From a virus, in IMG/VR virus record IMGVR_UViG_3300006902_000124, positions 1-31,563 of that record: a DNA stretch of 31,563 nucleotides. One strand, 5' to 3'. The stretch's first letter is position 1; every line of letters begins with the position of its first letter. This document shows, one piece after another, positions 5,245 through 28,644 of the stretch. The translations under genes and the position numbers were made by a program. The notes under the pieces are model-generated. The model had not been told where the DNA came from. It made no database searches and saw only the letters and a program-made list of their open reading frames with translations.

Positions 5245-6812
5245 CCATCATGTGTTACTTTTTTAATTAACATCCAATCATTAATTACTAATACATCTAT
5301 AGCAGTTTCTCTAAACGTTCTAATAGCATGCCAAGGTTCTTCTACAATAGGTTCTTGAGAATTAAAGCTAGTATTTAATAGTATAGGTATTCCTACTAAT
5401 TTATAAAACTCATGAATCATATCATAGTACTTCTCATTTTGTTCTCTATTCACTGTTTGTATTCTTGCTGTTCCATCAACATGTGTTACACCAGGAATCT
5501 TATCAGATTTAACTGGCATAATTCTTGACATATACGGAGATGGTTGATTAGTATCAAAGTAGTCTTGATAATATTCTTCCATTACAACAGGAGCAAATGG
5601 TCTAAAGTCTTCTCTCATTTTTATTGTACTATTAATAATATCTTTTATGTCAGGATTACGTGGGTCTGCTAATATACTTCTATTACCCAATGCTCTATTG
5701 CCACTCTCAGATTTACCTTGAAACCAACCTACTGTTTTACCATCAACTATTTGTTGAGCAACTCTTTTCATATCAAGAGGTTCCCATAATAATTCTTCAT
5801 ATCCCCATTCAAAATATTTATTTTTTCCAGGTTTCCAATCGTATGCTTTACCAGAGTAAGTATCTACTATATGCTTATTATTATTTAATACATAGTCAGC
5901 ATGTTGATACACCCCACAAGCTTGACCTTCATCACCTACAGCTGGAGGTACATAAACATTCGTCCATGTTTTAGTAAACTCTTCATTCATATAACCATTA
6001 TAAGATACACCACCAGCAACACAAAGATTCTCTGAGGTTTTAAGTGGATAAACAAATTCTTTTATTTTATCTATTGTGAATTCTTGAAGTGTGAATGCTA
6101 AATCTTGTTTCCTATATCTCTTTAAGTCTATATGGTCAAATTTTTCTTGCTTCTTTTCTGTTATTTCACCAGCAAGTATTAATTCAAATAGACTATAAAA
6201 ATAATCATTCCTTTGACCGTAAGCAGATAGGCCCATAAGTTTACCAGCTCCTAATGTACCAAACCCAGTTAAGTTTGCCATGTGATTCCATAACCAACCA
6301 ATAGGTAATACATCAGATAAATCGGTCATTACATTATTCTTATCAAAGAAGCAACATCTATATCTATTACCAATACCATCAATAGCTAATTTATCTGATT
6401 GCTCAAAACCTGAATTAATAAAGGCATAAGCAGCATGTGATTGATGATGGTCTATAAAGTATATCCCATCTTTATAATAATGGTCCCATAACTTTTTAGG
6501 TTGCCAATCAAATATCTCGTCATGGCCTTTTAAAACTGTTTGAAGCAAAGGTTCCTTTGACATTCTTACACCACCATAAGTATATGTAAATGCTAGTATA
6601 CTATCATCTTCTTTTTTAAAATACTCTTCAGTAAATTCATCATTCAATCTATAGTCATTAGGATTTAATACATCTGATTGATGAGCATAAGCTTCTGCGA
6701 AATATGGCAAGTTATGTTTAAATCGTGTTTGTCTTTCTCTTTGATTATGCCATACTCCATCATATGTGTTATGGTCATGTAAGTTTAATGCTACTGCTTT
6801 TATTTTATTTAT
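5235..6812 (-). CDS. NodU/CmcH/TobZ-family O-carbamoyltransferase, start lacks ATG
   Basis: This enzyme should transfer a carbamoyl group from carbamoyl phosphate, via carbamoyl-AMP, to a hydroxyl on a sugar or nucleoside. The HHQSHAAYAF motif (residues 122-131 of the extended protein) and IDGIG at 144-148 match the metal site of the N-terminal domain. AGGVSYNGYMN and SGNRALGNRSILADPR are hallmarks of the C-terminal domain. The longest ORF with a usual start begins with TTG at 6710, but the same frame is open to 6812. It encodes VALNLHDHNTY and ERQTRFKH, equivalent to the family's first strand and ER(F)TRxKH motif, so the true start lies at about 6801-6812. No ATG, GTG or TTG exists there; ATA is available at 6812 and 6803. 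Extended length is 525 residues. Confidence 0.85.
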   Translation of the reverse strand: MNKIKAVALNLHDHNTYDGVWHNQRERQTRFKHNLPYFAEAYAHQSDVLNPNDYRLNDEFTEEYFKKEDDSILAFTYTYGGVRMSKEPLLQTVLKGHDEIFDWQPKKLWDHYYKDGIYFIDHHQSHAAYAFINSGFEQSDKLAIDGIGNRYRCCFFDKNNVMTDLSDVLPIGWLWNHMANLTGFGTLGAGKLMGLSAYGQRNDYFYSLFELILAGEITEKKQEKFDHIDLKRYRKQDLAFTLQEFTIDKIKEFVYPLKTSENLCVAGGVSYNGYMNEEFTKTWTNVYVPPAVGDEGQACGVYQHADYVLNNNKHIVDTYSGKAYDWKPGKNKYFEWGYEELLWEPLDMKRVAQQIVDGKTVGWFQGKSESGNRALGNRSILADPRNPDIKDIINSTIKMREDFRPFAPVVMEEYYQDYFDTNQPSPYMSRIMPVKSDKIPGVTHVDGTARIQTVNREQNEKYYDMIHEFYKLVGIPILLNTSFNSQEPIVEEPWHAIRTFRETAIDVLVINDWMLIKKVTHDGWD

Positions 6813-7644
6813 TCAATAAGCTCGCGTATTTTTTTAATGGGAAGTGTCCTTTAGGTTGTACGTATTCTGTACAGGTTACACAATAGTTTTCATATTTAAA
6901 TAATCTGAAGTTCATCATCTTATCTACATTCTCTTGAGTAATTTCAAATTCTTTAGAGGTGATAGCATTATTTGCAAACTTTTTACTACAATGTACTAAG
7001 TTTTGATTTTCAAAATTAATAACAGGTACCATAGGGAATGCTGCACACATCTTCCTATCTATCTCTGCTGCTTGGGCGTTTAATCGTATCTCTTGAAAAT
7101 CAGGTGCTCTACCATTAAACTCTTTCCATAAAGTATTCTTATGGTCTAGCTTTTCCATTGCTTCTGGATATAGGTGCTTATATTTCTCAAAGTTAGGTGT
7201 CTTAATAACTAAGTTATAATTGTTAAATTCATTTTCATCATGGAAGTCATATGACTTTGGTCCTAATAAAGATATCTCATGCTCATAAAAATCTAATATG
7301 AAATGCTCAACATATATTATATCAGGATCTGTTAATACTTTTGGGTACCTTCTCCTTACTGTTGAGTTAGATAATACCTCACATACATGATTAGGATTAC
7401 TTTTAATTTCTTCAATAACTTCAGGTAAATTTTTTATTAATCCAGGTTCACCACCAAGTATGTTACATCTTGTTTTATAGTTTCTTAAATAATATAATGT
7501 TTTCTTTAAGAACTCCATGTCAACTGTTAGGTTCCTTTGTTCCAAAGTATAGCTAGTACAATAATGACAATCCTTATTACAAGACATTGACAAAAAGAAG
7601 TCTATTGCTAAATAATTATTTTGAACGTCTTTTAAATCTATCAT
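6805..7644 (-). CDS. Radical SAM protein with C-terminal auxiliary-cluster cysteines
   Basis: The CxxxCxxC motif (C22, C26, C29; CNKDCHYC) binds the [4Fe-4S] cluster that cleaves SAM, and ILGGEPGL (62-69) is the SAM-binding GGEP motif. Further cysteines at about 200, 219, 255 and 258 (KMC, HCS, CVTC) fit a twitch/SPASM-like auxiliary cluster. The 279-residue length fits a core with a short auxiliary domain. It starts with a 4-base ATGA overlap with the gene upstream and ends inside the non-ATG start region of the carbamoyltransferase. The substrate is not predictable from sequence. Confidence 0.8.
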   Translation of the reverse strand: MIDLKDVQNNYLAIDFFLSMSCNKDCHYCTSYTLEQRNLTVDMEFLKKTLYYLRNYKTRCNILGGEPGLIKNLPEVIEEIKSNPNHVCEVLSNSTVRRRYPKVLTDPDIIYVEHFILDFYEHEISLLGPKSYDFHDENEFNNYNLVIKTPNFEKYKHLYPEAMEKLDHKNTLWKEFNGRAPDFQEIRLNAQAAEIDRKMCAAFPMVPVINFENQNLVHCSKKFANNAITSKEFEITQENVDKMMNFRLFKYENYCVTCTEYVQPKGHFPLKKYASLLNK

Positions 7645-8009
7645 ACTAAAAATTTACCATCGCTTTGTCTAAGATTTCTTGCATCTGAATCATAATTGTG
7701 CCAATACGGTTGTTGAGGATGCCACAAGATTTTATCATGAATAAATTTATTAAATGCTGAATCTAATTTTTGCTTAGGGCCATCTTTAAATTCAGCATCC
7801 CACGCGTATGCAGGTAACTCATATATTTTTTCTACTAAGTAATAATATATATCTTCAACTTCTCTAGCACCATCTTCATATTTAAGCCGACACTTATCAC
7901 CTAATATTTTTTGCATATTAACATATAGTTGCTGGTACTTATCATCAATAGAAACCATATTGCCTTCATCATCTATTTTAACAAGTATATTGTTTACTAC
8001 TTCTATCAT
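7641..8009 (-). CDS. Uncharacterised 122-residue protein
   Basis: I recognise no family. The product is acidic at the N-terminus (VKIDDEGNMVSIDDKYQQLY), has a Tyr-rich helical middle (VEDIYYYLVEKIYELPAY), and an aromatic C-terminal segment (ILWHPQQPYWHNY). It has a single cysteine and no signal peptide or membrane helix. It is fixed between the DegT aminotransferase and a radical SAM gene by 4-base ATGA overlaps on both sides, which argues for a real, co-translated gene. It could be an accessory or carrier protein for one of these enzymes, but nothing in the sequence shows this. Confidence 0.6.
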   Translation of the reverse strand: MIEVVNNILVKIDDEGNMVSIDDKYQQLYVNMQKILGDKCRLKYEDGAREVEDIYYYLVEKIYELPAYAWDAEFKDGPKQKLDSAFNKFIHDKILWHPQQPYWHNYDSDARNLRQSDGKFLV

Positions 8010-9064
8010 ACTGATAATAAAATTATATTATTAACGTTATCTATTTCTTCATCTGTTAAATAAGGATTCATTGGTAATGTTAATATAGTTTCACTTATTA
8101 GTTTTGCATTTGGACAATTATCTTTTCTATGTATAATATTTTCATACATTGGATGTTCACATATAGGTTTAGGGTAATGTATTCCTGATTGTTCTATTCT
8201 TTCTTTAATAGTATCTCTTAACTCTTTACTCTCAAACCTAACAACATATTTATGATAAGTATGGATTAATCCAGGCTCAGGTTTTTGTATATGAACTGGT
8301 AAATCTTTAAGTACAGCGTCATATCTCTCAGCAATAACTTGTCTTTGGAAATTCCACTTATCCATCTTCCCTAATCTAAAATTAATAAACTCAGCATTCA
8401 TACCAAGCATCTTAGAATTATATCCTAATACTTCATGTTCACCATGCTTTCTTAATTTTCTAAATAACACCGCTTGTTTTTTATTGTCTGTAAGTATAGC
8501 ACCACCTCCAGCAATACCGGCAACTTGTTTATTAGCATTAAAACTAAATGTACTAATATCTCCTATGTTACCTGCTATCCATCCATTGTAATTAGAACCT
8601 AATGCTTGACAAGCATCTTCAATAAAGACAATATTGTTTTGCTTACAGAACTCTCGTATTTCTGCAGTGTCAGATATACTTCCAAATAGAAATGGATATA
8701 CAATTGCTTTTGTTTTATCACTCACCATCTCTTCAATACTTTCAAGTGATATGTGATATGTATGTAAATCTACATCACAAAATACTGGTGTGGCACCAGC
8801 TAAAGATACACATGATGCTGATGATATCCAAGAGAAGCTAGTCACTAATACTTCATCATCAGGTTTAAGACCTAAACTTAATAAAGAAAATGTTAAAGCA
8901 TCTGTTCCACTAGCACAAGCAACTGCAAACTTTCTACCAGTTAATTCTTTTAAACTCTTCTCAAGAAATTCTATATTTCTTTCTTGTTCTTTTTGCATTA
9001 CGCTATCAAAGAGTTTTAAATACTCTTCTTTGTTTTCTAAATATTCTCTATCCCAACCCGTCAT
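8006..9064 (-). CDS. DegT/DnrJ/EryC1/StrS-family PLP aminotransferase
   Basis: This family transfers an amino group, usually from Glu or Gln, to a keto-sugar nucleotide. The 352-residue protein shows ACASGTDAL (PLP phosphate region, 49-57), VFIEDACQALGS (146-157, with the ring-contacting Asp150) and STFSFNANKQ with the PLP lysine at K179, followed by the typical GIAGGGAILT. The C-terminal HTYHKYVVRF and HYPKPICEHP segments are also family-typical. Length is close to the usual 360-400 residues. A GGAG ribosome-binding site precedes the ATG. Together with glycosyltransferases and a carbamoyltransferase it implies an amino sugar. Whether it is a 3- or 4-aminotransferase cannot be told. Confidence 0.88.
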   Translation of the reverse strand: MTGWDREYLENKEEYLKLFDSVMQKEQERNIEFLEKSLKELTGRKFAVACASGTDALTFSLLSLGLKPDDEVLVTSFSWISSASCVSLAGATPVFCDVDLHTYHISLESIEEMVSDKTKAIVYPFLFGSISDTAEIREFCKQNNIVFIEDACQALGSNYNGWIAGNIGDISTFSFNANKQVAGIAGGGAILTDNKKQAVLFRKLRKHGEHEVLGYNSKMLGMNAEFINFRLGKMDKWNFQRQVIAERYDAVLKDLPVHIQKPEPGLIHTYHKYVVRFESKELRDTIKERIEQSGIHYPKPICEHPMYENIIHRKDNCPNAKLISETILTLPMNPYLTDEEIDNVNNIILLSV

Positions 9065-9950
9065 AAATATTCTCCGCTTTTTGTTTTATATATTCCATAA
9101 TCTTTACTTGGCCTTTAGCATTAGGGTGATCGTCTAACTTATCTATAATCCAAGGTAATTTGTCTTTTTTCGCTTTACCTAAAATTGCATTATTAAGTAT
9201 AAACCCTCCAAGCTCGCTTGCCATTGGCCAACCTATAAATTTTTCAATATCAATAAGATGTTCATGTTCACTAAGTATTCTTAAAATATTTTTTTCATCT
9301 TTTTGTTTATTACCTGGATATTTTATTGCATCTTTTTCCCAGTCTAATCCTTCAAGAAATACTTCCCCTTCTGTAGGCTTTAATCCATTTAAGAAATTTC
9401 TATATGGATGTACCATACAAAATTGCATATATGGTATGTCATACCTTTCACACATTATTTGTAATCCTAAAAAATTTCTAATACTTTTACGTAACCAACC
9501 CATTAAGTCACCAGCTGGTTGTACTCTTTCACTCAACCAACTATATCTAGCATTAGTATGAGCCCATTTTGCATGACCTTCAGTTATCTGATAATCATAT
9601 CTATTAGCTTGTGACCATGAACCTATAACCATTCCTATTTTAGATTTGTCTTCAATATTCATTATTATATCTTGTAATGTTGAGTAAATATACTCATTCC
9701 CTTGGCCACCTCGCGAGCAATTGATAATTTCCATATTCCATTTTTTTGCTAATAGCTCAGGCCACTTAGGCCATGATACATCCATGTCTGGGTAACAAGA
9801 AGATCTAAAAGTTTTATCACTCCAACTATCACCACTTACTATTAATATTTTTTTGTTTGACTTAAATGTTATATCTGGATTTGTAAATGGAATATTCTTT
9901 TTTACGTTTCCATACTTTTTAAGAAATTTTTTATTTTCTTCATAATTCAT
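9048..9950 (-). CDS. SGNH/GDSL-like hydrolase
   Basis: ILIVSGDSWSD (residues ~35-45) is the block I GDS motif with its nucleophile Ser. CSRGGQGNEYIYS gives the block III Gly/Asn, GSWSQANR follows, and DDHPNAKGQ near the C-terminus supplies the Asp-x-x-His-type ending. SGNH proteins deacylate or acylate sugars and lipids. The 300-residue protein has no signal peptide, so it probably acts inside the cell. It is a clear paralog of the gene at 11007-11837, sharing SWPKWPE, RGGQGN and YSTL. A radical SAM gene separates the two. Role as esterase or O-acyltransferase partner is open. Confidence 0.75.
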   Translation of the reverse strand: MNYEENKKFLKKYGNVKKNIPFTNPDITFKSNKKILIVSGDSWSDKTFRSSCYPDMDVSWPKWPELLAKKWNMEIINCSRGGQGNEYIYSTLQDIIMNIEDKSKIGMVIGSWSQANRYDYQITEGHAKWAHTNARYSWLSERVQPAGDLMGWLRKSIRNFLGLQIMCERYDIPYMQFCMVHPYRNFLNGLKPTEGEVFLEGLDWEKDAIKYPGNKQKDEKNILRILSEHEHLIDIEKFIGWPMASELGGFILNNAILGKAKKDKLPWIIDKLDDHPNAKGQVKIMEYIKQKAENIYDGLG

Positions 9951-11020
9951 ACAAATCCTTTACTGTCTCCACCCATATTGTCTTTATGAAAATGACTCTT
10001 ACCGCAAAAAGTTTTACATTGTCTAGGAGCATTCATAGGGTCATCACCTAATCCTTTATAAAAATTTTGCCAAGTATCACTCATAAAAACATCTTTAATA
10101 TCTTCAGCAGTATGAAGATTATCTATATGAAATTTCTCTTGATAAAATCCACGTTTCTCCATTGACTCTACCCATTGGTCTTTCTCACAACATGGAATAA
10201 AATATCCCATACTATTAAACATTATATCTTTTCTTAATTTAGCTAAACAGTCAGCGTCTATTTCAAATTCATCAATAGTAGGCCTATAAACTTCCATAGC
10301 ACCAACACTTCTTCCAATATTAATAGGTATTTCTATATGGTCTTGTCTTTGGTCTGTTCTATGTTCAGAAGATGGTTCATATACTCTCATATCTTTTGCA
10401 CCTTTCCATCTATCATCTACCCATCGAGATGAATGCATTTCCTGAAAAGGTATTCCCCATTGCGCAGCCATAAGCTTACCTTCGTCAATATGGTATTGAT
10501 TATATTTAAATACTATCCATTGCCACTCAATATACATCTGCATCTCTTTAGCAAGCTTCATTATTTCCCAAACCTGTTTGCCATTTTGGTTTTCTCTATA
10601 TTTATGAGATTCTTCTGGTAAACCATCTAAAGCAAATATCCATTTCCATTTTTTTTCACCTTGACAAATTTTGAAAACATCTTTCCACCATTCCATTGTT
10701 TTGCCACTACCATTAGTATGGAAACGAACTCTCATCTTTCTACCTTTCAAATACTTTAATGTCTTTATAAAATCCGGATGATAGATTGGATCTGATAAGT
10801 TTCCACAGAATTGTACCATATTAAAGACATCAAATATAACTTTATATTTTTCAAATGGAATATTATATCTACGGTCCCAAGCTTGTGATTTATATTCCGG
10901 ACTACCAGGTTTCATTTGAAAACGCATCATACACCCACCACATCGTAATCTACAACCAATGCCTGCTTCGAAATTTAATTCGTTATCAAGAAGCCAATTT
11001 ATATCTTCATAAGTTTTCAT
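9947..11020 (-). CDS. Radical SAM protein with fused C-terminal twitch domain
   Basis: The CxxxCxxC motif is C23, C27, C30 (CRLRCGGC), with Gly where an aromatic residue usually precedes the third Cys. VQFCGNLSDPIYHP (69-82) takes the place of the usual GGEP strand. The C-terminal ~110 residues carry C258, C277/C278, C335 and C339 (FIPCCEK ... CKTFCGK), the cysteine set of a twitch-type auxiliary [4Fe-4S] domain. The whole protein aligns by eye with two separate upstream genes: the core at 12675-13451 (shared FCGxxSDPIYxP, W..IVF.YN) and the twitch at 13451-13849. It is therefore the fused counterpart of that split pair. Flanked by paralogous SGNH genes. Substrate unknown. Confidence 0.8.
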   Translation of the reverse strand: MKTYEDINWLLDNELNFEAGIGCRLRCGGCMMRFQMKPGSPEYKSQAWDRRYNIPFEKYKVIFDVFNMVQFCGNLSDPIYHPDFIKTLKYLKGRKMRVRFHTNGSGKTMEWWKDVFKICQGEKKWKWIFALDGLPEESHKYRENQNGKQVWEIMKLAKEMQMYIEWQWIVFKYNQYHIDEGKLMAAQWGIPFQEMHSSRWVDDRWKGAKDMRVYEPSSEHRTDQRQDHIEIPINIGRSVGAMEVYRPTIDEFEIDADCLAKLRKDIMFNSMGYFIPCCEKDQWVESMEKRGFYQEKFHIDNLHTAEDIKDVFMSDTWQNFYKGLGDDPMNAPRQCKTFCGKSHFHKDNMGGDSKGFV

Positions 11021-11837
11021 AAAATTCTATTATATATTCTCCGATTGCTTTTTGTCCTAATCTATTAGGGTGGTAGTCTTTTTCTGATATATATAATCCT
11101 CTTTGTGCTTTTTGTTTTTGACTATCACCTATTATTTTATTCTCTAAATCAAAACCACCTATGTTATATGATAGTGGCCATCCTATAAATCTATTAGTAT
11201 CTATAATGTTTTCATAAGATAGTATAATATCTAAACATCTTCTAATTGATTTTTTAACTTTTGTTTTCTGATGACGATTGGTTTTCAAACCATCAAGCTT
11301 GTCTTGATCATTTTGAAAATGGAACTGTTTATTATTCCACCAATCTTCAAATAAATGTCCAGTTTGAAATTGTAAATATGGTAAGTCATATCTTTCACAA
11401 AGTATTTGAAAGCTATGCATCTCTCTTAAACTTTTTTTTGTATGACTTTCTATATTGTTCTTATGATCTCTCATGTCATTAATATTAGACATCCATGAAT
11501 GTTTCTGATAAAATTGTCCAGAGATACTATCCATTGGATGATTGCTAAGATTTCCTTTAAAGCTTTGCCAATCTCTTCTATGAGCTTGACTCCAACCAGC
11601 TATAACTAAACCTATTTCTTCTTTAGGTGTTGTAGTAATTTTATCTAATAATGTTGAGTATACAAACGTATTCCCTTGTCCACCTCTAGCTAAGCAAACT
11701 AATTCCATATCTAAATGTTTAGCTACATACTCTGGCCACTTAGGCCAAGACGTATCCATTTCAGGATGTGCTGAAGACCTAAATTCTAAGTCTGAAACAC
11801 TATCACCACTAACTATTAATTTTTTCTTCATAGTCAT
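11007..11837 (-). CDS. SGNH/GDSL-like hydrolase, second copy
   Basis: KLIVSGDSVSD is the block I Ser motif, LARGGQGNTFVYSTL block III, and DYHPNRLGQ the C-terminal Asp-x-His region. The 276-residue protein shares long stretches of pattern with the SGNH protein at 9048-9950 (TSWPKWPE, RYDLPYLQF versus RYDIPYMQF, IGWPL/IGWPM), so a duplication is likely. Alternative starts at 11837 and 11831 both fall inside the upstream PP-loop gene, giving a 23-29 base overlap. There is no export signal. Its pairing with twitch radical SAM genes suggests it handles the same intermediate or its ester. Confidence 0.75.
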   Translation of the reverse strand: MTMKKKLIVSGDSVSDLEFRSSAHPEMDTSWPKWPEYVAKHLDMELVCLARGGQGNTFVYSTLLDKITTTPKEEIGLVIAGWSQAHRRDWQSFKGNLSNHPMDSISGQFYQKHSWMSNINDMRDHKNNIESHTKKSLREMHSFQILCERYDLPYLQFQTGHLFEDWWNNKQFHFQNDQDKLDGLKTNRHQKTKVKKSIRRCLDIILSYENIIDTNRFIGWPLSYNIGGFDLENKIIGDSQKQKAQRGLYISEKDYHPNRLGQKAIGEYIIEFYENL

Positions 11838-12675
11838 TATAAGATTTTAAAGTTCCATTATAACCAGGAGGTGGCTTTCCTACATCTGTTAAATGATTTA
11901 ATGGATATAATTTTTCACCAAATGCCCATCTTCTTTCATGACACCAGAAACATTTACCACATACTCTTGTAAAGCCTTGTGTAGCCCATGCTGTCCCAGT
12001 GCATGATTTAGTATGTGGATAAATTTCTTTAAGTAAAAATTCATGTGAAAAATATATATCGGCAATAAACTTTTTATCAACATTAATAAATGGTTGATAT
12101 ACTTGATTGAAACATGTTGGCCAGTTATCTTCATGTGTTCGTCGTGGTTCACTCCACCTTATGAATCCATCTTTTATCATCTCTTCTTCAGATGGATTTT
12201 TTGACATACCGTCAAATCGTAAAGGCTGGTCATATTTTCTCATAAGAGCTCTTGTGATTCTATCTATTAATAATATCTTTACCATTCCAATAAGTGTCAT
12301 GTCTTTATATCTATCATAATGTTTTATACAATATCTAGCATCAGCGAAATGTTTAGGGTCTTTGTCATCAAATTCGAATACTTGTATATCTTTTAAATTA
12401 GCGTGAGGAAATAATTTTTGATATTTCTCAATAAACATAATAGCTGAATCAGCATCGCCTGGAGCATTTAAATCTCTACATGTATATGGTATCCATTCAA
12501 TATCTGGAAAATATTTTAAGCAAAGATAAAGTGCCGAAGCAGAATCACATCCCCCTGATAATGAAACTACAACTTGACAGGGTAAACCATTCTTATCAAG
12601 TTTAACATCATCTAATTTTTTAAGTTCTTTAATATCAAAAAAAGGTATCGTTATATTATTATATGTTATTTTCAT
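11809..12675 (-). CDS. QueC-like PP-loop ATP pyrophosphatase
   Basis: SLSGGCDSA (38-46) is the N-type ATP-pyrophosphatase PP-loop, which adenylates a substrate carboxylate or carbonyl. C225, C239, C242 and C245 (SCTGTAW ... VCGKCFWC) followed by ERRWAFGE reproduce the zinc-binding end of QueC (7-cyano-7-deazaguanine synthase). The usual order and spacing are loosely kept, but the 288-residue protein is longer than QueC and the middle (PHANLKDIQVF, RFDGMSKNPSEEEM) is its own. No queD, queE or folE homolog is visible in the window, so it may activate another acid for amidation or nitrile formation. One-base overlap (TAATG) with the rSAM core gene upstream implies coupling. Confidence 0.75.
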   Translation of the reverse strand: MKITYNNITIPFFDIKELKKLDDVKLDKNGLPCQVVVSLSGGCDSASALYLCLKYFPDIEWIPYTCRDLNAPGDADSAIMFIEKYQKLFPHANLKDIQVFEFDDKDPKHFADARYCIKHYDRYKDMTLIGMVKILLIDRITRALMRKYDQPLRFDGMSKNPSEEEMIKDGFIRWSEPRRTHEDNWPTCFNQVYQPFINVDKKFIADIYFSHEFLLKEIYPHTKSCTGTAWATQGFTRVCGKCFWCHERRWAFGEKLYPLNHLTDVGKPPPGYNGTLKSYNDYEEKINS

Positions 12676-13451
12676 TATGTATTCCTAGTATTTCTCCAAG
12701 TCTCTACTTCTTTAGTGACATTAAAATATTCTTCGTTCTTAATTTTCTTAACAGTGTTTTCTTTACTTGGTGCTGGAAAATTACTATAGATATCTTTCAT
12801 ACTATCACGTATATTTCTTGCTTTAGCATCGAATCCTCTATTTGTTTTAACTAACAATAAAGTAAAGCCTTCCTCTTCTGCCATTTCTTTTGCCCTTTCA
12901 ATTTCATGCTCATTATAACCAAACACTATATATTGCCAAACAATAGCTACACCCATTGATTTACCTAATCGCATTTTATCCCATACTTCATCAAAGTTAG
13001 AACCAATACGATACAATGCACTCTTCTGGTCTATTCCATCTACACCAAAGTACCATGCATTCTCATTCATACCATAAGTAAATGCTTCTTCCCACCAAGC
13101 TTGAGTATGGACTTTATGAGACTGACCACATGTAGCAATACGTACACCTCTACCAGTACCATCTAGCATTCTTAGGAATTCCATAAAATGGGGATTATAG
13201 ATTGGGTCTGATATTTGACCACAGAATGTTATGCAGTGTTGATAGTAATCTAATAGCTTTTGAAAATCCTTTGGCTCTAGATCGAATGCTCTCTTAATAC
13301 GTGGTCCACCTTCTTTCTTTTGACGAAGACATTGTGGACATCTTAAGATACATCTATGCGATGAATCAATGTTGGGCGATCCCCATACTTCATTATGTGT
13401 ATACCAATCCGCAATGCGATCAGTGGATTGTAATTCTGAAAATCTTGCCAT
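12675..13451 (-). CDS. Radical SAM core protein lacking its own twitch domain
   Basis: C34, C38 and C41 (CILRCPQC) form the SAM-cleaving cluster. ITFCGQISDPIYNP (74-87) matches FCGNLSDPIYHP of the fused protein at 9947-11020, and YFGVDGID and WQYIVFGYNEHE match its later strands. The 258-residue protein stops after the core, with no further Cys-rich region. The missing auxiliary domain is encoded immediately upstream at 13451-13849, overlapping by one base. The most economical reading is a two-subunit enzyme with core and twitch on separate polypeptides. Substrate unknown. Confidence 0.8.
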   Translation of the reverse strand: MARFSELQSTDRIADWYTHNEVWGSPNIDSSHRCILRCPQCLRQKKEGGPRIKRAFDLEPKDFQKLLDYYQHCITFCGQISDPIYNPHFMEFLRMLDGTGRGVRIATCGQSHKVHTQAWWEEAFTYGMNENAWYFGVDGIDQKSALYRIGSNFDEVWDKMRLGKSMGVAIVWQYIVFGYNEHEIERAKEMAEEEGFTLLLVKTNRGFDAKARNIRDSMKDIYSNFPAPSKENTVKKIKNEEYFNVTKEVETWRNTRNT

Positions 13452-13849
13452 TATATTGTTTCCGTCAAGTATAAATTATTATCTTTCCTTAAGTTACCAC
13501 ATTTATATTTACAATGCTTCATTGCACGTTGTTGGTCGTTTAGTAATGTATGAAAAAAGAAATCCCATTCTTCCGATTTAAATATATCTTCTAGCTTCTC
13601 AACATTCTTTACTCGAAGGTGATCATCTTTCAATCCAAAGTATTCTACACCAAAGTCATTCTTTGGATCGTCTAACCAACAGCATGGAAGCATAAAGCCA
13701 TCAGATGTATAAGCAGCAGGTTTGTGATAAGACTTCGGATTAAAAGTTAAACACCTAGGTTGAATCTTTAATTTAAATTCACCTATATCAAGTTCTTGTG
13801 CTTCTTGTTCTTCCTTCTGTTTATTCATTGCTGCTTCTGACGAACTCAT
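13451..13849 (-). CDS. Stand-alone twitch (auxiliary Fe-S) domain protein
   Basis: The 132-residue product has a charged Glu/Gln/Lys leader (1-22) and then C33, C56/C57, C113 and C117 in the contexts QPRCLTF, GFMLPCCWLD and HCKYKCGN. This is the cysteine pattern and spacing of the C-terminal domain of the radical SAM protein at 9947-11020 (DADCLAK, FIPCCEK, CKTFCGK). Shared non-Cys features include L.DIF.S..W..F. It has no CxxxCxxC core motif. It starts with a one-base overlap with the nitroreductase stop and overlaps the radical SAM core start by one base, so all three are co-translated. Probable role: holds an auxiliary [4Fe-4S] cluster and binds substrate for the core protein. Confidence 0.75.
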   Translation of the reverse strand: MSSSEAAMNKQKEEQEAQELDIGEFKLKIQPRCLTFNPKSYHKPAAYTSDGFMLPCCWLDDPKNDFGVEYFGLKDDHLRVKNVEKLEDIFKSEEWDFFFHTLLNDQQRAMKHCKYKCGNLRKDNNLYLTETI

Positions 13850-14634
13850 TATACAAGCTTTCCATTTAAATATACATCTGTTACACCGTCAAATGTAGGG
13901 AAACGATACTTACCATCTAGTTCTCCTGTACGACGATCATCAAAGGGTATATCTTTATTTAAAGTTTCTGCATGTAATCTCCTATCAACTCCTTCATTAG
14001 GATATCCAACGCCAATAATAAGTTTAGCATTCATAAGTTTACCATCTGCTCTCTTACCTAATATTTCAGATATTGGATTGGAGTCAAGTGCTGAACATAT
14101 TCCAGTTTTATATCCCATCATCGCTGCTGAAAGTATTAATTGACCAACTGAAATTCCAATTGAGAAATCTATTTGCTCTTCATAAATTGATAAAATATTT
14201 GGTGATGCTCCATTCTCTTGAGCCATGAAGTGGGTACCACCTCTTACTGTACGACGATCTTCAGTATATACAAATATAGCATTTGCTAATATCTGAGAAT
14301 TTTTTACAGAGTATTCATCGTCTTGCCAAAACTCACCATCCCTATCTTCAAACATACCTTCAGTATGAAAATCACTACCATCGTAACCATCTACTTCTGC
14401 ATCTTCTGATACAGGGAATAAAGAAAACTTTTTAGTGTTATTATATATTGCTCTTATCTTTTCAGGGTCAGTGAAAACATGTAAAGCAAAATGAGTTTCC
14501 ATTTGTTTCTTTGGAGAATTTTGAGCAGCATATATTAGTGCATCCAAATCTTCCTGAGGAATTTGTTTATTTAAATCATAATTCCTTTGTGCTTGTTTAG
14601 ATACTTTTACAGCATCCATTATTTGTTGATTCAT
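13849..14634 (-). CDS. Nitroreductase-family FMN oxidoreductase
   Basis: The 261-residue protein has the N-terminal V(S)KQAQRNYD segment, equivalent to the family's RRSxRxF FMN-phosphate site. IYAAQNSPKKQ follows as the first flavin-contacting helix. DFSIGISVGQLILSAAMMGYKTGICSAL corresponds to the membrane-like dimer helix, and IIGVGYPNEGVDRR to the C-terminal FMN loop (GxGYP). These enzymes reduce nitro groups, quinones or enones with NAD(P)H, or oxidise rings in biosynthesis. It is preceded by AAGGAG at good spacing and by an exact TATAAATA, making it the probable first gene of a transcript covering the twitch/rSAM/QueC-like genes. Confidence 0.8.
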   Translation of the reverse strand: MNQQIMDAVKVSKQAQRNYDLNKQIPQEDLDALIYAAQNSPKKQMETHFALHVFTDPEKIRAIYNNTKKFSLFPVSEDAEVDGYDGSDFHTEGMFEDRDGEFWQDDEYSVKNSQILANAIFVYTEDRRTVRGGTHFMAQENGASPNILSIYEEQIDFSIGISVGQLILSAAMMGYKTGICSALDSNPISEILGKRADGKLMNAKLIIGVGYPNEGVDRRLHAETLNKDIPFDDRRTGELDGKYRFPTFDGVTDVYLNGKLV

Positions 14635-14647
14635 AATTTTCTCCTTT

Positions 14648-16054
14648 TTATGTATTTATAATGTCTAGCCATGGATATTTAGGTCGATGATATTCTTCTA
14701 ATTCTGGGAATACTTCAAATAAATCCATTTCCCATTTAGTTCCTTTATAATGTTTGTCATTCATAAGTAGATAATCTAATGTGTCTTGATAATCTAAATC
14801 TTTTCCAAAGTCTGGTCTATTAGGTACGAGACCTTTAGGCTCTTCTTTTAATACATTCTGTATATCTGGATAGCCTTCATAAAATGGAATAAGTTTTTCT
14901 TTTAATGGTTTGGGTAATACATTAGCACATAACTTAGCAGGGCTTCTAATGTTTGACCAATTTATTTGATTAAATAATTCATCATGTTCACCAAACCAAT
15001 CTAGTAATTCCCAAAATCTAAGTACAGATAAGAAAGATATTGCTCCATTTATATTTACTGTTACATTTGGATATTGACGAATATGTTCTATATTCCTAAC
15101 TATTTCTTCCCAATTAGACCTACGTCTTATATAATTATTTGCTTTACCTATTGAATCTAATGACACTGTAAATTCAAATATATGAAAGTGAGGAATAAAT
15201 TTTGAAATCTTTATTTTTTCAAACTCTAATGTAGACATATTCGTTTGATATTTTACTGTCATATGTTTAGCTTCACCTGATTCAACTATTCTTTCTAATA
15301 ATCTATAAAACTTTTTCATTACTAATGGTTCACCACCAATTAATTTTAGATTATATATGTATGGAGCTATACTAACGATATCTTCAATAATATCATCTAT
15401 TGTATTTTGGTCTAATTTCTCTGGTGTTGTTTTAGCAAATTTAGTAAATATTTTTTCATCTTTTAAATCATCAGAATGTATTGTAGCTAACCTAGTACTA
15501 GAATCATATGGAATACACATATAACAATCTAAGTTACAAGTGTTTCCAAAAGCTTTTACTTGTACCTCAAGTAATCTTTCTTTAAATGTAATCCTATTAT
15601 CTCTTTTAAATTCCTCTACAGCATTACGTATACGTGGCCAAAGTCTCTTATCGTTTGATTGAATTTTTAAAGCAGCTTGACGTCTTGACCTTCCAAAATA
15701 TTTTTCTTGGTATCTACAATTTTTACATACTTTTTCTGCAAGTTTAAGTGGGGAATTAGGAGTAGTCATTTCTGCACGTAATTCATTTAGTAAAGCATCT
15801 TTACTATAATATTCTGTGCCTTTTATGTTTTTAATATTTGGACCTATATTTTCTTCAGCCCAAGAACATGGAATAAGTTCACCTCTAGTACTCGTATAAA
15901 TCATTTGAAATGGTGCAGTACAAAACCAAATCTCTTCATCTTTAATTTGATTTTCTAAGTTAGGGACATTTTCAAACCACTTACTAGTATCTACTTTGCC
16001 ACCACCCAAGAACTTATCACCAGGGCCACCTTTAGTTAATTTATTTGATGACAT
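14648..16054 (-). CDS. Radical SAM protein with N-terminal twitch domain
   Basis: Domain order is reversed relative to common SPASM proteins. A twitch-type cysteine set comes first (C45 in WFCTAPF, C63 in LIPCSW, C110 and C113 in VCKNC, then GRSRRQAAL). The radical SAM motif follows at C173, C177, C180 (CNLDCYMC), with LIGGEPL at 238-244. This matches what I recall as the N-terminal-twitch radical SAM family. The first 30 residues (KGGPGD ... GGGKVDTSKWF) recur in the neighbour at 16041-17684. The shared C-terminal YYKGTKWEM/LFEVFPELEEY-type end is also in the neighbour and in 18980-21223. 468 residues; substrate unknown. Confidence 0.82.
   Translation of the reverse strand: MSSNKLTKGGPGDKFLGGGKVDTSKWFENVPNLENQIKDEEIWFCTAPFQMIYTSTRGELIPCSWAEENIGPNIKNIKGTEYYSKDALLNELRAEMTTPNSPLKLAEKVCKNCRYQEKYFGRSRRQAALKIQSNDKRLWPRIRNAVEEFKRDNRITFKERLLEVQVKAFGNTCNLDCYMCIPYDSSTRLATIHSDDLKDEKIFTKFAKTTPEKLDQNTIDDIIEDIVSIAPYIYNLKLIGGEPLVMKKFYRLLERIVESGEAKHMTVKYQTNMSTLEFEKIKISKFIPHFHIFEFTVSLDSIGKANNYIRRRSNWEEIVRNIEHIRQYPNVTVNINGAISFLSVLRFWELLDWFGEHDELFNQINWSNIRSPAKLCANVLPKPLKEKLIPFYEGYPDIQNVLKEEPKGLVPNRPDFGKDLDYQDTLDYLLMNDKHYKGTKWEMDLFEVFPELEEYHRPKYPWLDIINT
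14653..14660 (-). promoter_or_regulatory. T4-type late promoter box TATAAATA before the nitroreductase
   Basis: Exact TATAAATA on the minus strand, 18 bases from the ATG at 14634, with AAGGAG between them. It overlaps the last codons of the upstream radical SAM gene. It would start a transcript covering 14634 down to 2288. Consensus match only; the predicted RNA start leaves a leader of roughly a dozen bases. Confidence 0.55.
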
Positions 16055-17684
16055 TTTTCTTTTTACGCTTACGCTTAGCCTTTGGTTTAATAAATGGTTT
16101 TCTATCTTCTTTTGGTATATAATATTCTTCTAACTCTGGAAACACATCAAACAATTGCATTTCCCATTTAGTTCCATTATAATATTCATCTGCTTTTAAT
16201 AAGTAATCAAAAGTATCTTGAATATTTACTTCTCTATCTGCTGGCATTTCAAGAGCTGCAGTAATATCAGGCCAACGTGTATACTTAGGTATTAAATCTT
16301 GTTTTATTTTCTCTGGTAAATTATTTACTCTTAAATGTATTGGACCTTCTAATAACGCCCAATTTATTTGATCGATAATAGGATTTTCCAAACAAAAATC
16401 AATTACTTCATAAAATCTCATTACGCTTAGGAAAGAAACTAAACCGTTAAAGTCTACATTGGCATTATCGTATTCTCTACAATACTCACAATTCTTTACA
16501 ACCTTATCCCAATCAGTTCTTCTTCTCATGTATTCAATAGTTTTACCAACACCATCAACAGATGCTACCATACAAACAAGTTTAAACTTTGGAATATAAT
16601 TAAAGATGTTATGTTTACCTGCTTTAGTTTCTGTTAGGTTTGTTTGATATTTAATTACAATATTTTTAGCTTCATCTATTTCTATTAACTTATCGAGTAA
16701 TTCATAATGTTTTTTCATAATTAAAGGTTCACCACCAATAATTTTAATGCTTCGTATATATGGTGCTAAAGCAATAGTTTGGTCTACCATAGATACTGTA
16801 TTAGTTATTTCATCATTCTTCTTTATATGGTCAAGAAAATGTTCACCTTCACGGTCATATGATAATGAAGCTAGTGGTATTCTCATTGTACCATCTTTAT
16901 CTATTACAACATCTTCATCATTATATATTTCATTCTTATCTTTTGATACCCATCTAAGTTTCTCTTTAGCTTCATCATCTAATTTTTCAAATATTGCATC
17001 ACTCCATACATCACCTTCAATAGCAACCTTTTGACGAATTGTAGAATTAGCATGTACACACATGTAACAATCTAAATTACATTCAGAACCATAAACTTTT
17101 AATTGGACTTCAAGAATTCTTCCACCGTCCATCATATGATATTCCCCAGACACTTCCATCATCTTTATCATCTGTTCAACTTTCTTCCAATAGTCTGCAT
17201 CATTAGAATGAATTTTCATACAAGCAGTTCTTCTAGACCTTCCATATCTTTCTTCATCTGCTATGCATCTTTGACAAGTTCTTTTAGTTTGTTCGAATTT
17301 AGAATTTGGATCTAGCATTTCAGAACGAACTTTATTTAGTTCATCACTATGCATCCACTCTTCTAATGAAGTGTTTAATACACTATGTTTTTCTGATTGA
17401 GTTGCAAAACAACATGCTTGATACTTTCCATTTATTTCCATATATACTTGAGTAAATGGAATATCACAAAAGAAGAGCTCTTGGCTTTTTGCTTTTTCTG
17501 ATAATGTTCCTTCACCTAATAAATTTGGGATAAAGTCTTGTGTATTTGGGTCAAACATATAATCATTAGCAAACCATTCAGTCGTATCAACCTGTCCGCC
17601 AAGTAAAGATGTTTTAAAGTTGTGATCGCCTGGACCACCTCGTGTCATAAACCCAGGTAATTTTTCCATTTCATTCTCACTCAT
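16041..17684 (-). CDS. Radical SAM protein with N-terminal twitch domain and inserted segment
   Basis: A twitch cysteine set (C73 in FFCDIPF, C91/C92, C137, C140, then GRSRRTA) precedes the radical SAM motif C202, C206, C209 (CNLDCYMC) and IIGGEPL (315-321). Between the Cys motif and GGEP lie about 105 residues, versus about 60 in the paralog at 14648-16054; the extra segment is charged (KNEIYNDEDVVIDKDG). The N-terminus shares GGPGD ... LGGxVDTxxWF with that paralog. The C-terminus ends in a very basic tail (KPKAKRKRKKKN), which could bind nucleic acid or a phosphate-rich partner. 547 residues; overlaps its neighbours by 4 and 14 bases. Confidence 0.82.
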   Translation of the reverse strand: MSENEMEKLPGFMTRGGPGDHNFKTSLLGGQVDTTEWFANDYMFDPNTQDFIPNLLGEGTLSEKAKSQELFFCDIPFTQVYMEINGKYQACCFATQSEKHSVLNTSLEEWMHSDELNKVRSEMLDPNSKFEQTKRTCQRCIADEERYGRSRRTACMKIHSNDADYWKKVEQMIKMMEVSGEYHMMDGGRILEVQLKVYGSECNLDCYMCVHANSTIRQKVAIEGDVWSDAIFEKLDDEAKEKLRWVSKDKNEIYNDEDVVIDKDGTMRIPLASLSYDREGEHFLDHIKKNDEITNTVSMVDQTIALAPYIRSIKIIGGEPLIMKKHYELLDKLIEIDEAKNIVIKYQTNLTETKAGKHNIFNYIPKFKLVCMVASVDGVGKTIEYMRRRTDWDKVVKNCEYCREYDNANVDFNGLVSFLSVMRFYEVIDFCLENPIIDQINWALLEGPIHLRVNNLPEKIKQDLIPKYTRWPDITAALEMPADREVNIQDTFDYLLKADEYYNGTKWEMQLFDVFPELEEYYIPKEDRKPFIKPKAKRKRKKKNVIK

Positions 17685-18979: not shown

Positions 18980-21223
18980 TTATTTCTCCTTATATATTTG
19001 TGGTTCAACTACCGTTTGTAGATAGTGAGGTTTCAGTTCAGGGAATACATCTAATACATTCATTTCCCATTTTGTGCCTTTGTATGCTTCATCTGCATCT
19101 ATACAGTATTTATATAATTCTTTAGGTTGAAAATTTTCCTCAGCTGGTAATCTAAGAAGTGTAGCAATTTCTTTCATATGTGGAATATCTTCATATATAG
19201 GAATTAATCTATCCTTTATATCTTGTGGCAAATTATTAGCTTTCATTTGCTGTGGGAAATCTATTGGCCACCAATGATTTTCCATTCCTTCGAAATGTTC
19301 TGCCATTTTATATAAATGTAATACACTAAAAAATGTAACTACAGAATTTAATTCAAGTCTAACATTTCGATATCTTAGGAATTCATTTATATTTTCTACA
19401 ATCTCATTAAAGTTTCCTCTTCTTCTAATATAATCATTATATTTTCCAACTCCATCTAAAGATACTGTGATTAAAACTGTTTTAAATTTTGGAATATAAT
19501 CAAAAATATTATGCTTACCATGTTTAGTTGTAGTTCCATTTGTTTGATATTTTAATTGTATATTTGCAGCATCACCTGATTCTATTAACATATCTAATAA
19601 TTCATAATGCTTTTTCATAACAAGTGGTTCACCACCAATAATTTTTAAATTATAAATGTATGGACCAAGTTCTACAATCTGCCTATTGATTTTATCTACT
19701 GGTTTTTTCTTCATAGCTTGTCGAGATTGTTCCCTTCTATGAAATTCATCACCCCAAACAACCGCGTTGTATACACCATTTTCAAATGCCATTTTAGTTC
19801 GTATAGAAGAACTGAAGTGGAAACACATATGACAATCTAAATTACATTCTATACCAAAAGATTTTACTTGAATTTCAAGAATTCTCTCTTTGAATATATA
19901 TGGAGATGTGTTTGCACTATTAATAACCCTATCCCAAAATAAATTCTCATCAGCATCTCTATAAAGTTCATTAGCAATCATTCTTCGAGACCTTTTAATA
20001 TTAGTTTCATCATTTATACATTTACTACAATGTTTATTAACAGTTTCAAAAGAAGAATTTGGATCTGTCATTTCACTACGAAGATTTTCCATTATATCTC
20101 CAGTCATCCATTCTTTAAGTGAAGTATTATATAAATTATGTGTTGTAGAACGTACAGCGAAATTACATGGAGCATAATTACCTTCTTCATCAGTGAATGC
20201 CATTATATGGGGTATAGAACAAAACCAAATATCTCCATTATCAATAAGTTTTCTTATTGCTTCTTTATTTACAGAAAATATTATATCATCAGGTTGTGGT
20301 AAATTACCAAACTGTTCTCTATGATTTGCTGAAGCTAACTCAGTATGTATTGCTATCTTACCTTTAAATGTATTCAGAGCAGTTATGATAGGCCCAATAT
20401 CTTGGTTCTTTAAACCGCGTTTCCAATACCAATAACCACCATCTTGGACAGGATTGGTTCGATGATAAATTATTTCTTTCCCTAACCATCTACACTCTTG
20501 AAATAATCTTGGAGCAGGGTCAAATGTATCTTTAGTATAAACATATGTTTTGAATTTACCTAATAAATTAGGAACAGGAGATTTTAGATTAGTATTTTTT
20601 AAATCTAAATATTTAGCTTCTTGATGATAAGTTAATATACCGTGGTCAGGATAATCGCTTATTACTTTTTGTACTGTTTTATAATACTCTCTATTAGTTC
20701 CTAAGAACAAATGATCGAATTGAATATCTTCTTCAACTTCTTTGTATATAGGGAAATGTATTATCTTTTCAAAATGTTCTGCGTCCTTTGGCCCATTAGG
20801 ATAAACATCAGTGTCACACAAATTAATAATCCTTTTTGGATTAAAAAAGCTTAAAGCTTTAGGATATTTTTTAGGGTGATTTTCTGAATAAACAGAAATT
20901 AGTTTTTTTGAAAATAAAGCTTTGAGAGATAATTGTTGGTTATTACTATAATCATTCCAAGTCATATGAGCTAGTGTCATCATACTATTACCTAATATCA
21001 TTGACACATCATCATCACCAACAAATATATTATTAACTTCTACATTTTTACAATGAATATATTTATCTGAAATAGATTGAGTATAATCACCTGATGTAAA
21101 GTCACGATGGGTGATAATACAAAGCCTAGTATCTATACCCTTTTCGTTTAGGTGGGAACAATATTCATAACTATAGAATAATAATCCATCTGCTGGTTTA
21201 CTGGTACATACTATGTTTAACAT
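18980..21223 (-). CDS. Fusion of a glycosyltransferase-like domain to an N-twitch radical SAM enzyme
   Basis: Residues 1 to ~310 look like a GT-B-type domain. The N-terminal NIVCTSKPADGLLFYSYEY resembles the first strand and loop, and YVYTKDTFDPAPRLFQE (228-243) followed by LGKEIIY resembles the C-terminal donor-binding segment. Then come twitch cysteines C335 (WFCSIPH), C353, C399 and C402 (HCSKC), then RSRRMIA. The radical SAM motif is C460, C464, C467 (CNLDCHMC), followed by IIGGEPL. The C-terminal YKGTKWEM ... FPELKPHY matches the two N-twitch paralogs downstream. At 747 residues it is the largest protein here. First gene of the minus block, behind a divergent late promoter. The GT assignment is moderate, the rSAM part strong. 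Confidence 0.78.
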   Translation of the reverse strand: MLNIVCTSKPADGLLFYSYEYCSHLNEKGIDTRLCIITHRDFTSGDYTQSISDKYIHCKNVEVNNIFVGDDDVSMILGNSMMTLAHMTWNDYSNNQQLSLKALFSKKLISVYSENHPKKYPKALSFFNPKRIINLCDTDVYPNGPKDAEHFEKIIHFPIYKEVEEDIQFDHLFLGTNREYYKTVQKVISDYPDHGILTYHQEAKYLDLKNTNLKSPVPNLLGKFKTYVYTKDTFDPAPRLFQECRWLGKEIIYHRTNPVQDGGYWYWKRGLKNQDIGPIITALNTFKGKIAIHTELASANHREQFGNLPQPDDIIFSVNKEAIRKLIDNGDIWFCSIPHIMAFTDEEGNYAPCNFAVRSTTHNLYNTSLKEWMTGDIMENLRSEMTDPNSSFETVNKHCSKCINDETNIKRSRRMIANELYRDADENLFWDRVINSANTSPYIFKERILEIQVKSFGIECNLDCHMCFHFSSSIRTKMAFENGVYNAVVWGDEFHRREQSRQAMKKKPVDKINRQIVELGPYIYNLKIIGGEPLVMKKHYELLDMLIESGDAANIQLKYQTNGTTTKHGKHNIFDYIPKFKTVLITVSLDGVGKYNDYIRRRGNFNEIVENINEFLRYRNVRLELNSVVTFFSVLHLYKMAEHFEGMENHWWPIDFPQQMKANNLPQDIKDRLIPIYEDIPHMKEIATLLRLPAEENFQPKELYKYCIDADEAYKGTKWEMNVLDVFPELKPHYLQTVVEPQIYKEK
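19107..19114 (-). promoter_or_regulatory. Possible internal late promoter box
   Basis: An exact minus-strand TATAAATA inside the 3' end of the fusion gene, about 129 bases before the second nitroreductase start. That gene has its own strong ribosome-binding site, so an internal promoter is conceivable. However, the box lies in coding sequence (ELYKYC) and could be chance. Confidence 0.25.
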
Positions 21224-26675: not shown

Positions 26676-27625
26676 TGGAGATATTGAATTTAAATTATTA
26701 TGAGCAAGAACCAGAAGATAGTACATTTCCAGATATTATGGTTGACATCACACATAGGTGTAATATGGAATGTAATAACTGTTACATACCTACTAGAACT
26801 CCACCAGACATGGACATAAATAAGTTCAGAGAATTTATTAAACGTTTTCCTAATAAACGTATGTTTAGAATCGTAGGAGCAGAACCCACATTACATAAAC
26901 ATTGTATAGATTTTATAAAGACAGTATTAGAAGAAGGCCATATGTGTTTATTAATAACAAATGGTTTACGTTTATCGAGTCCAAGTTTTGTTAAGAAATT
27001 ACAAGCAACTGGATTAAAGCAAATATATATGAGTATGAATGGTGTTGATAGAGATGATTGGTATGAAAAAATTGATGACTTAGCTTGTGCTGAAAAGAAA
27101 TTAAAAGCATTTAAAAATATTGCAAATAAGTTTAATCTTGATATAGGTACAATTATTGTTAAAGGTATTAATGAAGAAGCACCAAGACGTATGTTAGATT
27201 TAATCGAAAAATATGATGTAAAGAATATTACTATGCGTATTAAAAATGTTGGACAGCTTGGTCGTTACATGCAAGACACAACTGAAAATTATAAAATGGA
27301 AGACTTAGTTCGTATATGTGCTGGACATTTTAATTTAACTGAAGAATATATATGGGAATTTTATAAGAAAGAGCATACGTATACCGATGGTTGGAATTAT
27401 TGGGAACGAGAATCATGTGGTATAGAATTCCCTGTGGATAAAAATACTGATCGTTCATTTAGATATAAAGGCCGATGGGTTAAATTAACAAATTGGAGTA
27501 CAGATAATGAAGTTGGTATTCCAGATCCTGGTAGCGAGCGTCGAGGACGTATTACACCAGATTGGAAGATAGCACCTTTCATGGAGCATGTAAGAATTGG
27601 AATAGAGAATGGGAGTGGTTACTAA
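26672..27625 (+). CDS. Radical SAM enzyme (GAEP variant)
   Basis: C30, C34 and C37 (CNMECNNC) form the radical SAM cluster. RIVGAEPTLH (66-75) is a GAEP variant of GGEP, and LITNGLRLS follows as expected for strand 3. The C-terminus has only scattered Cys (RICAGHF, ESCGIEF), which is not a clear twitch or SPASM set. The ATG at 26672 overlaps the upstream stop as ATGA; ATG 26675 is also possible. 317 residues. Between a B12-type radical SAM enzyme and a GMP reductase-like gene. Substrate unknown. Confidence 0.8.
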   Translation: MMEILNLNYYEQEPEDSTFPDIMVDITHRCNMECNNCYIPTRTPPDMDINKFREFIKRFPNKRMFRIVGAEPTLHKHCIDFIKTVLEEGHMCLLITNGLRLSSPSFVKKLQATGLKQIYMSMNGVDRDDWYEKIDDLACAEKKLKAFKNIANKFNLDIGTIIVKGINEEAPRRMLDLIEKYDVKNITMRIKNVGQLGRYMQDTTENYKMEDLVRICAGHFNLTEEYIWEFYKKEHTYTDGWNYWERESCGIEFPVDKNTDRSFRYKGRWVKLTNWSTDNEVGIPDPGSERRGRITPDWKIAPFMEHVRIGIENGSGY

Positions 27626-28644
27626 TGAATGATATAAAATTAGATTTTGATGATGTATTAATAAAACCTAGAAAATCTGTTATACCTCTTACAAGAAAGA
27701 GTGTTAATATAGAAATACCTTGGTTAGATAAAACAGCTCATCCTGTTGTTATCGCAAATATGCCTTCAACTGGAACATATGAGATTGCAAAGCATATGAC
27801 ACCAATGAAAGTGTTTACATTTATTCATAAAGAATATAAAGTACATGAGCATAGGGAAAATTTATCTGTGATGGAAGATCGTAGTTATATTGCTATTACA
27901 AGTGGTGTTAGAAATAAAGATGTAATGAGAACAATAGAAATTATATCAGGCTTTGAAGATATTGGAATGATTAATGTTGATATAGCTAATGTATATGCTA
28001 ATGTTAGTGGAATGATTAAAGCTATTAAAACATTTAAAGAACATTTTCCAAATATATTATTATGTGCTGGTAATATATGTGATAAAGATTTAATGCAAAC
28101 TTTAGTTGATGCTGGTGCTGATTATATTAAAGTTGGTGTAGGTTCAGGGGCTGCATGTATTACTCGAACAGAAGTTGGCGTAGGTATACCCCAATGGAGT
28201 GCTGTAAGAGAATGCTATGAAGAATCACAAAAAACTGGATGCAGAATAATATCTGATGGTGGATGTGTTACAGCAGGCGATGTATGTAAAGCAATTGCGG
28301 CTGGAGCTGATATGGTTATGATTGCTGGTATGGTATCTAGTTGTTATGAATGTAGTAACATGGTAGAGATTGATGGTCAACAATATGTAAATTTATATGG
28401 ATTAGGCTCAACAAAACAATATAATATACATACTATAAGTGAACAAGAATATAGACCAAACGAAGGTAGAGATTTAATGATTCCTGCTAAGGGTCATATT
28501 AAAGATATTATTAATCAAATACTTGGTGGATTAAGAAGTGTATGTACTTATGTAGGTGTATCTCATATTACACAATTATCTTCTCATGCTGAATTTATTA
28601 GAGTAAATAATACTCATAATAGAAGTTTAGAAAAATATGGATAA
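27625..28644 (+). CDS. GMP reductase / IMP dehydrogenase-family protein
   Basis: The start is ATG 27625 (MNDIKLDFDDVLIKPRKS), overlapping the upstream stop by one base (TAATG). The 339-residue TIM barrel has the family's N-terminal FDDVLIKP, NVDIAN, and a catalytic loop YIKVGVGSGAACITRTEVGVG with Cys178, followed by IISDGGCVTAGDVCKAIAAGADMVMIAGM (phosphate site). Length and absence of CBS domains match GMP reductase (GuaC; GMP to IMP with NADPH) better than IMP dehydrogenase. The loop reads GSGAACITR where GuaC has GPGSVCTTR, so a related purine or a modified nucleotide could be the substrate. Its place in a biosynthetic operon is unusual. Confidence 0.78.
   Translation: MNDIKLDFDDVLIKPRKSVIPLTRKSVNIEIPWLDKTAHPVVIANMPSTGTYEIAKHMTPMKVFTFIHKEYKVHEHRENLSVMEDRSYIAITSGVRNKDVMRTIEIISGFEDIGMINVDIANVYANVSGMIKAIKTFKEHFPNILLCAGNICDKDLMQTLVDAGADYIKVGVGSGAACITRTEVGVGIPQWSAVRECYEESQKTGCRIISDGGCVTAGDVCKAIAAGADMVMIAGMVSSCYECSNMVEIDGQQYVNLYGLGSTKQYNIHTISEQEYRPNEGRDLMIPAKGHIKDIINQILGGLRSVCTYVGVSHITQLSSHAEFIRVNNTHNRSLEKYG

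Follow-up and report, generated by a model that had tools for sequence, protein, structure and literature searches.

In the radical SAM enzymes BtrN, anSME, SuiB and BlsE, the auxiliary cysteine module is located C-terminally, in the same chain as the core. To our knowledge, the auxiliary cluster of radical SAM enzymes with SPASM or twitch domains is always covalently attached, and for this reason its role has been studied by point mutation. Here we describe a locus of a marine phage in which a twitch-like module and a radical SAM core are encoded by two separate genes, with the twitch gene placed ahead of the core gene.

The window, which is the whole stretch of DNA analysed (31,563 nt, 31.6 kb; GC 31.6%), is the viral record IMGVR_UViG_3300006902_000124. 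According to its open reading frames, a run of mostly overlapping genes extends on the minus strand from 21223 to 2288 and encodes several radical SAM proteins, two nitroreductase-family proteins, a PP-loop ATPase, a DegT aminotransferase, a carbamoyltransferase, a methyltransferase and putative glycosyltransferases. Much of the operon is collinear with an island in the isolated pelagiphage Mosig EXVC030M, with ~40-71% identity in the SGNH-like, DegT, radical SAM, carbamoyltransferase, methyltransferase and glycosyltransferase genes. In pelagimyophages, islands of this type have been named the host recognition cluster; they contain glycosyltransferases, and radical SAM cassettes have been added to them (PMC7029224). 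A set of 12 radical SAM genes has also been recorded in one T4-like marine virus (PMC5332604). It was also possible to see a 122-aa protein at 7641-8009, whose Mosig counterpart (Mosig_00087) is fused to the DegT aminotransferase C-terminus, and two paralogous SGNH-like proteins with a VSGDS motif (9048-9950 and 11007-11837), each adjoining the fused radical SAM gene and neither having a Pfam match. Elsewhere the phage record carries IMPDH/GMP reductase-like (27562-28644), short AMP-ligase-like (28637-29359) and CHASE2-adenylate/guanylate cyclase (30219-31502) genes. The features considered below are the following.

9947-11020, minus strand: fused paralog, core-then-twitch, 357 aa (profile comparison with both halves of the pair)
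11809-12675, minus strand: PP-loop ATPase with a QueC-like Cys-rich C-terminus, 288 aa (PF06508, 23.5 bits; DGMSxNP replaces YPDC)
12675-13451, minus strand: stand-alone radical SAM core, proposed subunit, 258 aa (CILRCPQC motif, no auxiliary domain, extra C-terminal strand-helix; passes PF04055 with 31.4 bits, cutoff 29.5)
13449-13453, minus strand: TAATG stop/start overlap of the twitch and core genes, one shared base (ORF coordinates and sequence)
13451-13849, minus strand: stand-alone twitch (auxiliary Fe-S) protein, proposed subunit, 132 aa (C33, C56, C57, C113, C117; homology to the fused protein's half)
13849-14634, minus strand: nitroreductase-family flavoprotein, 261 aa (PF00881, 37.5 bits)
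14648-16054, minus strand: N_Twi_rSAM, twitch before core in one chain, 468 aa (NF033640, 274.8 bits, cutoff 170)
16041-17684, minus strand: N_Twi_rSAM, 547 aa (NF033640, 285.3 bits)
18980-21223, minus strand: N-terminal domain of ~330 aa fused to N_Twi_rSAM, 747 aa (NF033640, 262.3 bits, residues 333-733)

The genes for the 132-aa and 258-aa proteins are both intact and lie in different frames. From the nitroreductase gene through twitch and core to the PP-loop gene (13849-14634, 13451-13849, 12675-13451 and 11809-12675, all on the minus strand) there is a one-base overlap at each junction. An earlier reading made from the sequence alone had described both the overlap within the pair and those with the flanking nitroreductase and PP-loop genes, and the ORF coordinates agree. 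The TAATG overlap of twitch and core is a probable case of translational coupling. The cysteines named in that reading were also found, namely C33, C56/C57, C113 and C117 in the twitch protein, these five being invariant in 36 twitch proteins, and C34-x3-C38-x2-C41 in the core, all three invariant in the family alignment of 32 cores.

The AlphaFold2 model of the 258-aa core had a pLDDT of 82.8 and a pTM of 0.83, and its best PDB fold matches were BlsE (7vob, E 2.2e-6) and SuiB (5v1s, E 2.6e-6); as modelled, this protein has the radical SAM barrel fold. The extra C-terminal strand and helix are confident in the model and could be part of the docking surface. The profile search that had been suggested for the 132-aa protein was divided in its outcome: the protein itself stayed below the gathering threshold of PF13186 SPASM (14.9 bits against 21.5), but 29 of the 36 members of its family matched at E up to 0.1 (best E 1.5e-4). 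The 132-aa protein has the conserved C...PC...CxxxC pattern with at least four cysteines. We call it twitch-like on account of its homology to half of the fused protein, and do not regard it as a curated SPASM member. Its model was of moderate confidence (pLDDT 75.7, with residues ~71-120 above 85) and gave no PDB fold match; in BFVD it matched a viral protein with 87% identity (E 5.6e-18), and there were weaker matches (E 0.003-0.007) to two small viral proteins, of which one has 112 aa, like the Mosig twitch. The PDB sequence search with the twitch profile gave chance-level matches only. Against TIGR04317 (W_rSAM_matur, cutoff 380 bits) the core scored 18.4, the twitch 13.5 and the fused protein 29.3 bits, so none is a member; the N-terminal part of this model was matched by the core and the C-terminal part by the twitch.

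When family profiles were compared by hhalign, the 258-aa family aligned with residues ~15-222 of the 357-aa family (probability 100, E 1.7e-44), and residues ~249-341 of the latter aligned with the 132-aa family (probability 98.8, E 1e-16). Since the 258-aa protein maps to the N-terminal half and the 132-aa protein to the C-terminal half, the order of the modules in the pair is a permutation of that in the fused paralog. The comparison of both halves supports the original proposal that one operon holds a split twitch-first form together with a fused core-twitch paralog, and the motifs common to them (FCGxxSDPIYxP, PCC and CK(YK/TF)CG) were confirmed. The fused protein had also been taken as the counterpart of the pair; both halves are indeed homologous, but it is an old relative with ~30% identity and a separate clade, and not a direct counterpart. 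The same identity and clades rule out a recent duplication of the fused gene as the origin of the pair.

The relatives of the core were taken from IMG/VR as the best 80 of 510 above the chosen threshold, where 80 is a count of records, some contigs being near-identical, and not a number of independent lineages. Core identity among these relatives went from 98% down to 51%. In this set (best 80 of 510), all 80 loci had a separate twitch coding region immediately upstream of the core and no locus had twitch and core in one chain, a recurrence that is far beyond chance. The overlaps between the two genes were mostly of 1, 4 or 17 bases (15, 25 and 19 cases, respectively). When the window was compared with four relatives, dN was ~0.015-0.08 and dS 0.15-0.77 for both genes, with dN/dS ~0.06-0.13 (against L047, 0.044/0.770 for the twitch and 0.076/0.752 for the core); these values indicate strong purifying selection on both. 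The split is a real and conserved architecture of the whole family, not a local oddity or a broken gene. The sequence-only reading had described a split with the modules in reversed order: both the split and the twitch-first order are real, but family members are split as a rule and core-then-twitch splits also exist, so neither the split nor the order is an event specific to the window.

Tandem twitch pairs upstream of a single core were seen in L061 (4367-4995), L068 (4236-4858) and L087 (4239-4861), with all five cysteines in both copies; the first copies form a clade of their own. In L021 a MazG-like pyrophosphohydrolase gene (5687-6010) lies between twitch and core, and a gap of similar length is present in L060, L065 and L067. 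As some phages have two twitch genes or the intervening MazG-like gene, a strict 1:1 complex coupled by translation does not hold for all of them. In four of the 80 loci (L091, L094, L095 and L116) the twitch forms the C-terminus of a ~405-aa protein, whose N-terminal domain is the one that opens the 747-aa protein of the window.

This N-terminal domain (residues 1 to ~330 of the protein at 18980-21223) begins LNIVCTSKPADGLL and has no Pfam match; it stands alone in Mosig (Mosig_00083), is fused to the twitch in L095 and L116 and to N_Twi in the window. Mosig_00083 is annotated as a molybdenum cofactor enzyme, yet it has no radical SAM motif. As to the order of the modules, twitch-first is real for the pair but not unusual in the operon, where three neighbours (468, 547 and 747 aa) are twitch-first within one chain (NF033640). 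In the NF033640 search the 258-aa core reached 15.5 bits (cutoff 170) and the 132-aa protein gave no match, so neither is a member; single core sequences match this family weakly (28 of 32, best 2.3e-10). A direct derivation of the pair from an N_Twi single chain found no support, neither half being significant in profile-profile comparison. The PP-loop protein is fused to N_Twi_rSAM in several phages, with 743-778 aa where complete. It occupies the N-terminus in L092 (6260-8491), L093 (8299-10530), L095 (7934-10270), L112 (5098-6999) and L116 (7850-10159), and a TKGGPGD-type motif, which also opens the stand-alone N_Twi proteins of the window, joins the two parts. Such fusions suggest that the parts belong to one pathway.

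A second lineage is split in core-then-twitch order. It comprises Mosig_00084/00085, L060 (7373-7978/7975-8295), L097 and the MAG loci L033-L039, some of which resemble phage contigs, and L114 is a fused member. Two of its loci, L035 (5951-6898) and L037 (5951-6897), are in Hyphomicrobiales MAG contigs of 227 and 174 kb with housekeeping neighbours. By blastn, all that these contigs have in common is the 948-bp core and twitch pair (80.7% identity), located at different chromosomal sites. Given that there is no other homology and the sites differ, the pair seems sufficient as a unit. A small precursor peptide beside it was considered and rejected, the homology being confined to the two genes. 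The core of the pair is rare in cells, with 2 of the 298 genomes in the order of the L035 MAG (Hyphomicrobiales) carrying it.

Trees of the core and twitch sequences (FastTree, 44 and 52 sequences, respectively) were midpoint-rooted, so precedence of split or fused forms was not read from them. Both trees had the same main groups, with the twitch-first split group apart from the fused group; the core-first sequences make up the remainder, well separated in the core tree and with poorly resolved branches in the twitch tree. Pairwise distances of twitch and core were correlated (r 0.95, 33 loci), with a partial correlation of 0.80 given the adjacent PP-loop protein, compared with 0.41 between core and PP-loop protein given the twitch. 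This co-variation is suggestive of an interaction; it was discarded as proof of one, being weak and not distinctive when only close relatives are taken (14 loci, partial 0.41).

The label "QueC-like" given to the 288-aa neighbour describes it in part. Like QueC, Cap9 and QatC, it has an SGGxDS loop and a C-terminal CxxCxxC site, and the SGGxDS PP-loop is kept in 66 of 66 PP-loop partners; a CFWC Cys site is also kept. Unlike them, its Cys spacing is C(x)13 and not C(x)8 and the substrate motifs are absent: none of the 66 partners has the QueC motifs YPDC, VPxRN and YxQxHxxE, as defined in PMC13329287, and 64 of 66 have a DGMSxNP-type motif. For this reason the substrate is probably not 7-carboxy-7-deazaguanine, and QueC/7-deazaguanine chemistry was rejected for this partner. 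The notion of one multi-enzyme unit is a reasonable deduction from the overlaps and gene fusions, but the PP-loop gene is adjacent in only 50 of the 80 loci and the nitroreductase/PP-loop adjacency is not universal.

Taking these results together, we consider with a probability of about 0.7 that the two genes encode one radical SAM enzyme composed of two subunits, probably an oxidoreductase, in which the auxiliary Fe-S domain is a protein of its own. We infer a complex, a cluster, a redox role and a pathway along the following lines. The 258-aa subunit would be a minimal radical SAM barrel, which would hold the [4Fe-4S]-SAM cluster by way of CX3CX2C and generate the 5'-deoxyadenosyl radical. 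The 132-aa subunit would be a twitch (half-SPASM) module, with four of its five invariant cysteines ligating one auxiliary Fe-S cluster, and it would dock where the barrel is open, in the position that the C-terminal half takes in the fused paralog. The likeliest function of this cluster would be to accept the substrate-radical electron, because it looks fully Cys-ligated; the reaction would be a dehydrogenation or an oxidation that forms a bond, like those of BtrN- or SPASM-type enzymes. Full ligation by cysteine suggests electron acceptance rather than substrate binding, an argument drawn from BtrN/SPASM enzymes versus MoaA. Through the overlapping start and stop codons the two subunits would be kept in stoichiometric amounts, the twitch being translated first, and the neighbouring flavoprotein and PP-loop enzyme may act on the same substrate. 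Considering the genomic setting, in a phage host-recognition island, the product is probably a modified surface glycan or protein.

Other explanations were weighed against this one. The one-base overlap and the different frames would be expected if a sequencing or assembly frameshift had divided one gene, or if the pair were a decaying duplicate of the fused gene. Frameshift and pseudogene are ruled out by the conservation in 80 of 80 loci and the purifying selection, and the MazG-like gene of L021 stands between the two halves; moreover, a single indel cannot yield the pair because the gene order reverses that of the fused gene, and we give this explanation practically no weight. The lack of a PDB fold match for the twitch model would fit a module that binds zinc or no metal and merely closes the active site or binds substrate. 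This is improbable, since the cysteine pattern and the matches follow SPASM/twitch modules and the partner core is in every case a radical SAM protein.

Rather less improbable, although still unlikely, is that the 132-aa protein acts as a free carrier of electrons with an Fe-S cluster, or as an auxiliary subunit shared by several radical SAM proteins, instead of being dedicated to the adjacent core. The many radical SAM genes in the operon, the two twitch genes of some phages and the fusion of twitch to a non-core domain in L091/L094/L095/L116 are compatible with it, whereas the twitch always adjoins the same core (80/80 loci, best 80 of 510), is homologous to a covalent C-terminal half in the fused paralog, and in L035/L037 accompanies the core with no other shared gene. 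To a slightly greater degree, but with low probability as well, split radical SAM/twitch enzymes may already be described and the pair be an ordinary member: the pelagimyophage cassettes and the 12-gene virus cited above are on record, and N-terminal-twitch single chains are a curated family (NF033640). Against this, our search, which covered open-access papers, found none that describes a separate twitch or SPASM subunit.

Returning to the two-subunit enzyme, we think it somewhat better than an even chance that it represents an undescribed class, in which the auxiliary Fe-S domain is separate and exchangeable. This class would be widespread in marine T4-like phages and occasionally a free-standing two-gene unit in bacteria, within a domain-shuffled toolkit (twitch, core, PP-loop, N_Twi and the N-terminal domain) that builds a modification. 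If a natural two-piece enzyme exists, its auxiliary cluster could be omitted, restored or swapped, which would provide a direct test of its role. An abundant group of marine phages would then carry a modular, uncharacterised radical-chemistry pathway within its host-recognition island.

Compared with BtrN, anSME, SuiB and BlsE, the pair has the same elements, a radical SAM barrel bearing CX3CX2C and an auxiliary Cys module, but here the module is a separate protein encoded upstream. The NF033640 N_Twi_rSAM proteins also have the twitch encoded ahead of the core, although as single chains. The 357-aa paralog and phrog_21308, which matches both the 258-aa core and the fused protein, are homologous to the pair but are fused with the core first, the paralog being the distant relative (~30% identity) already placed in a separate clade. 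In Mosig EXVC030M (Mosig_00084/00085) and L033-L039 core and twitch are also separate genes, but with the core gene first and in a separate clade of the core tree.
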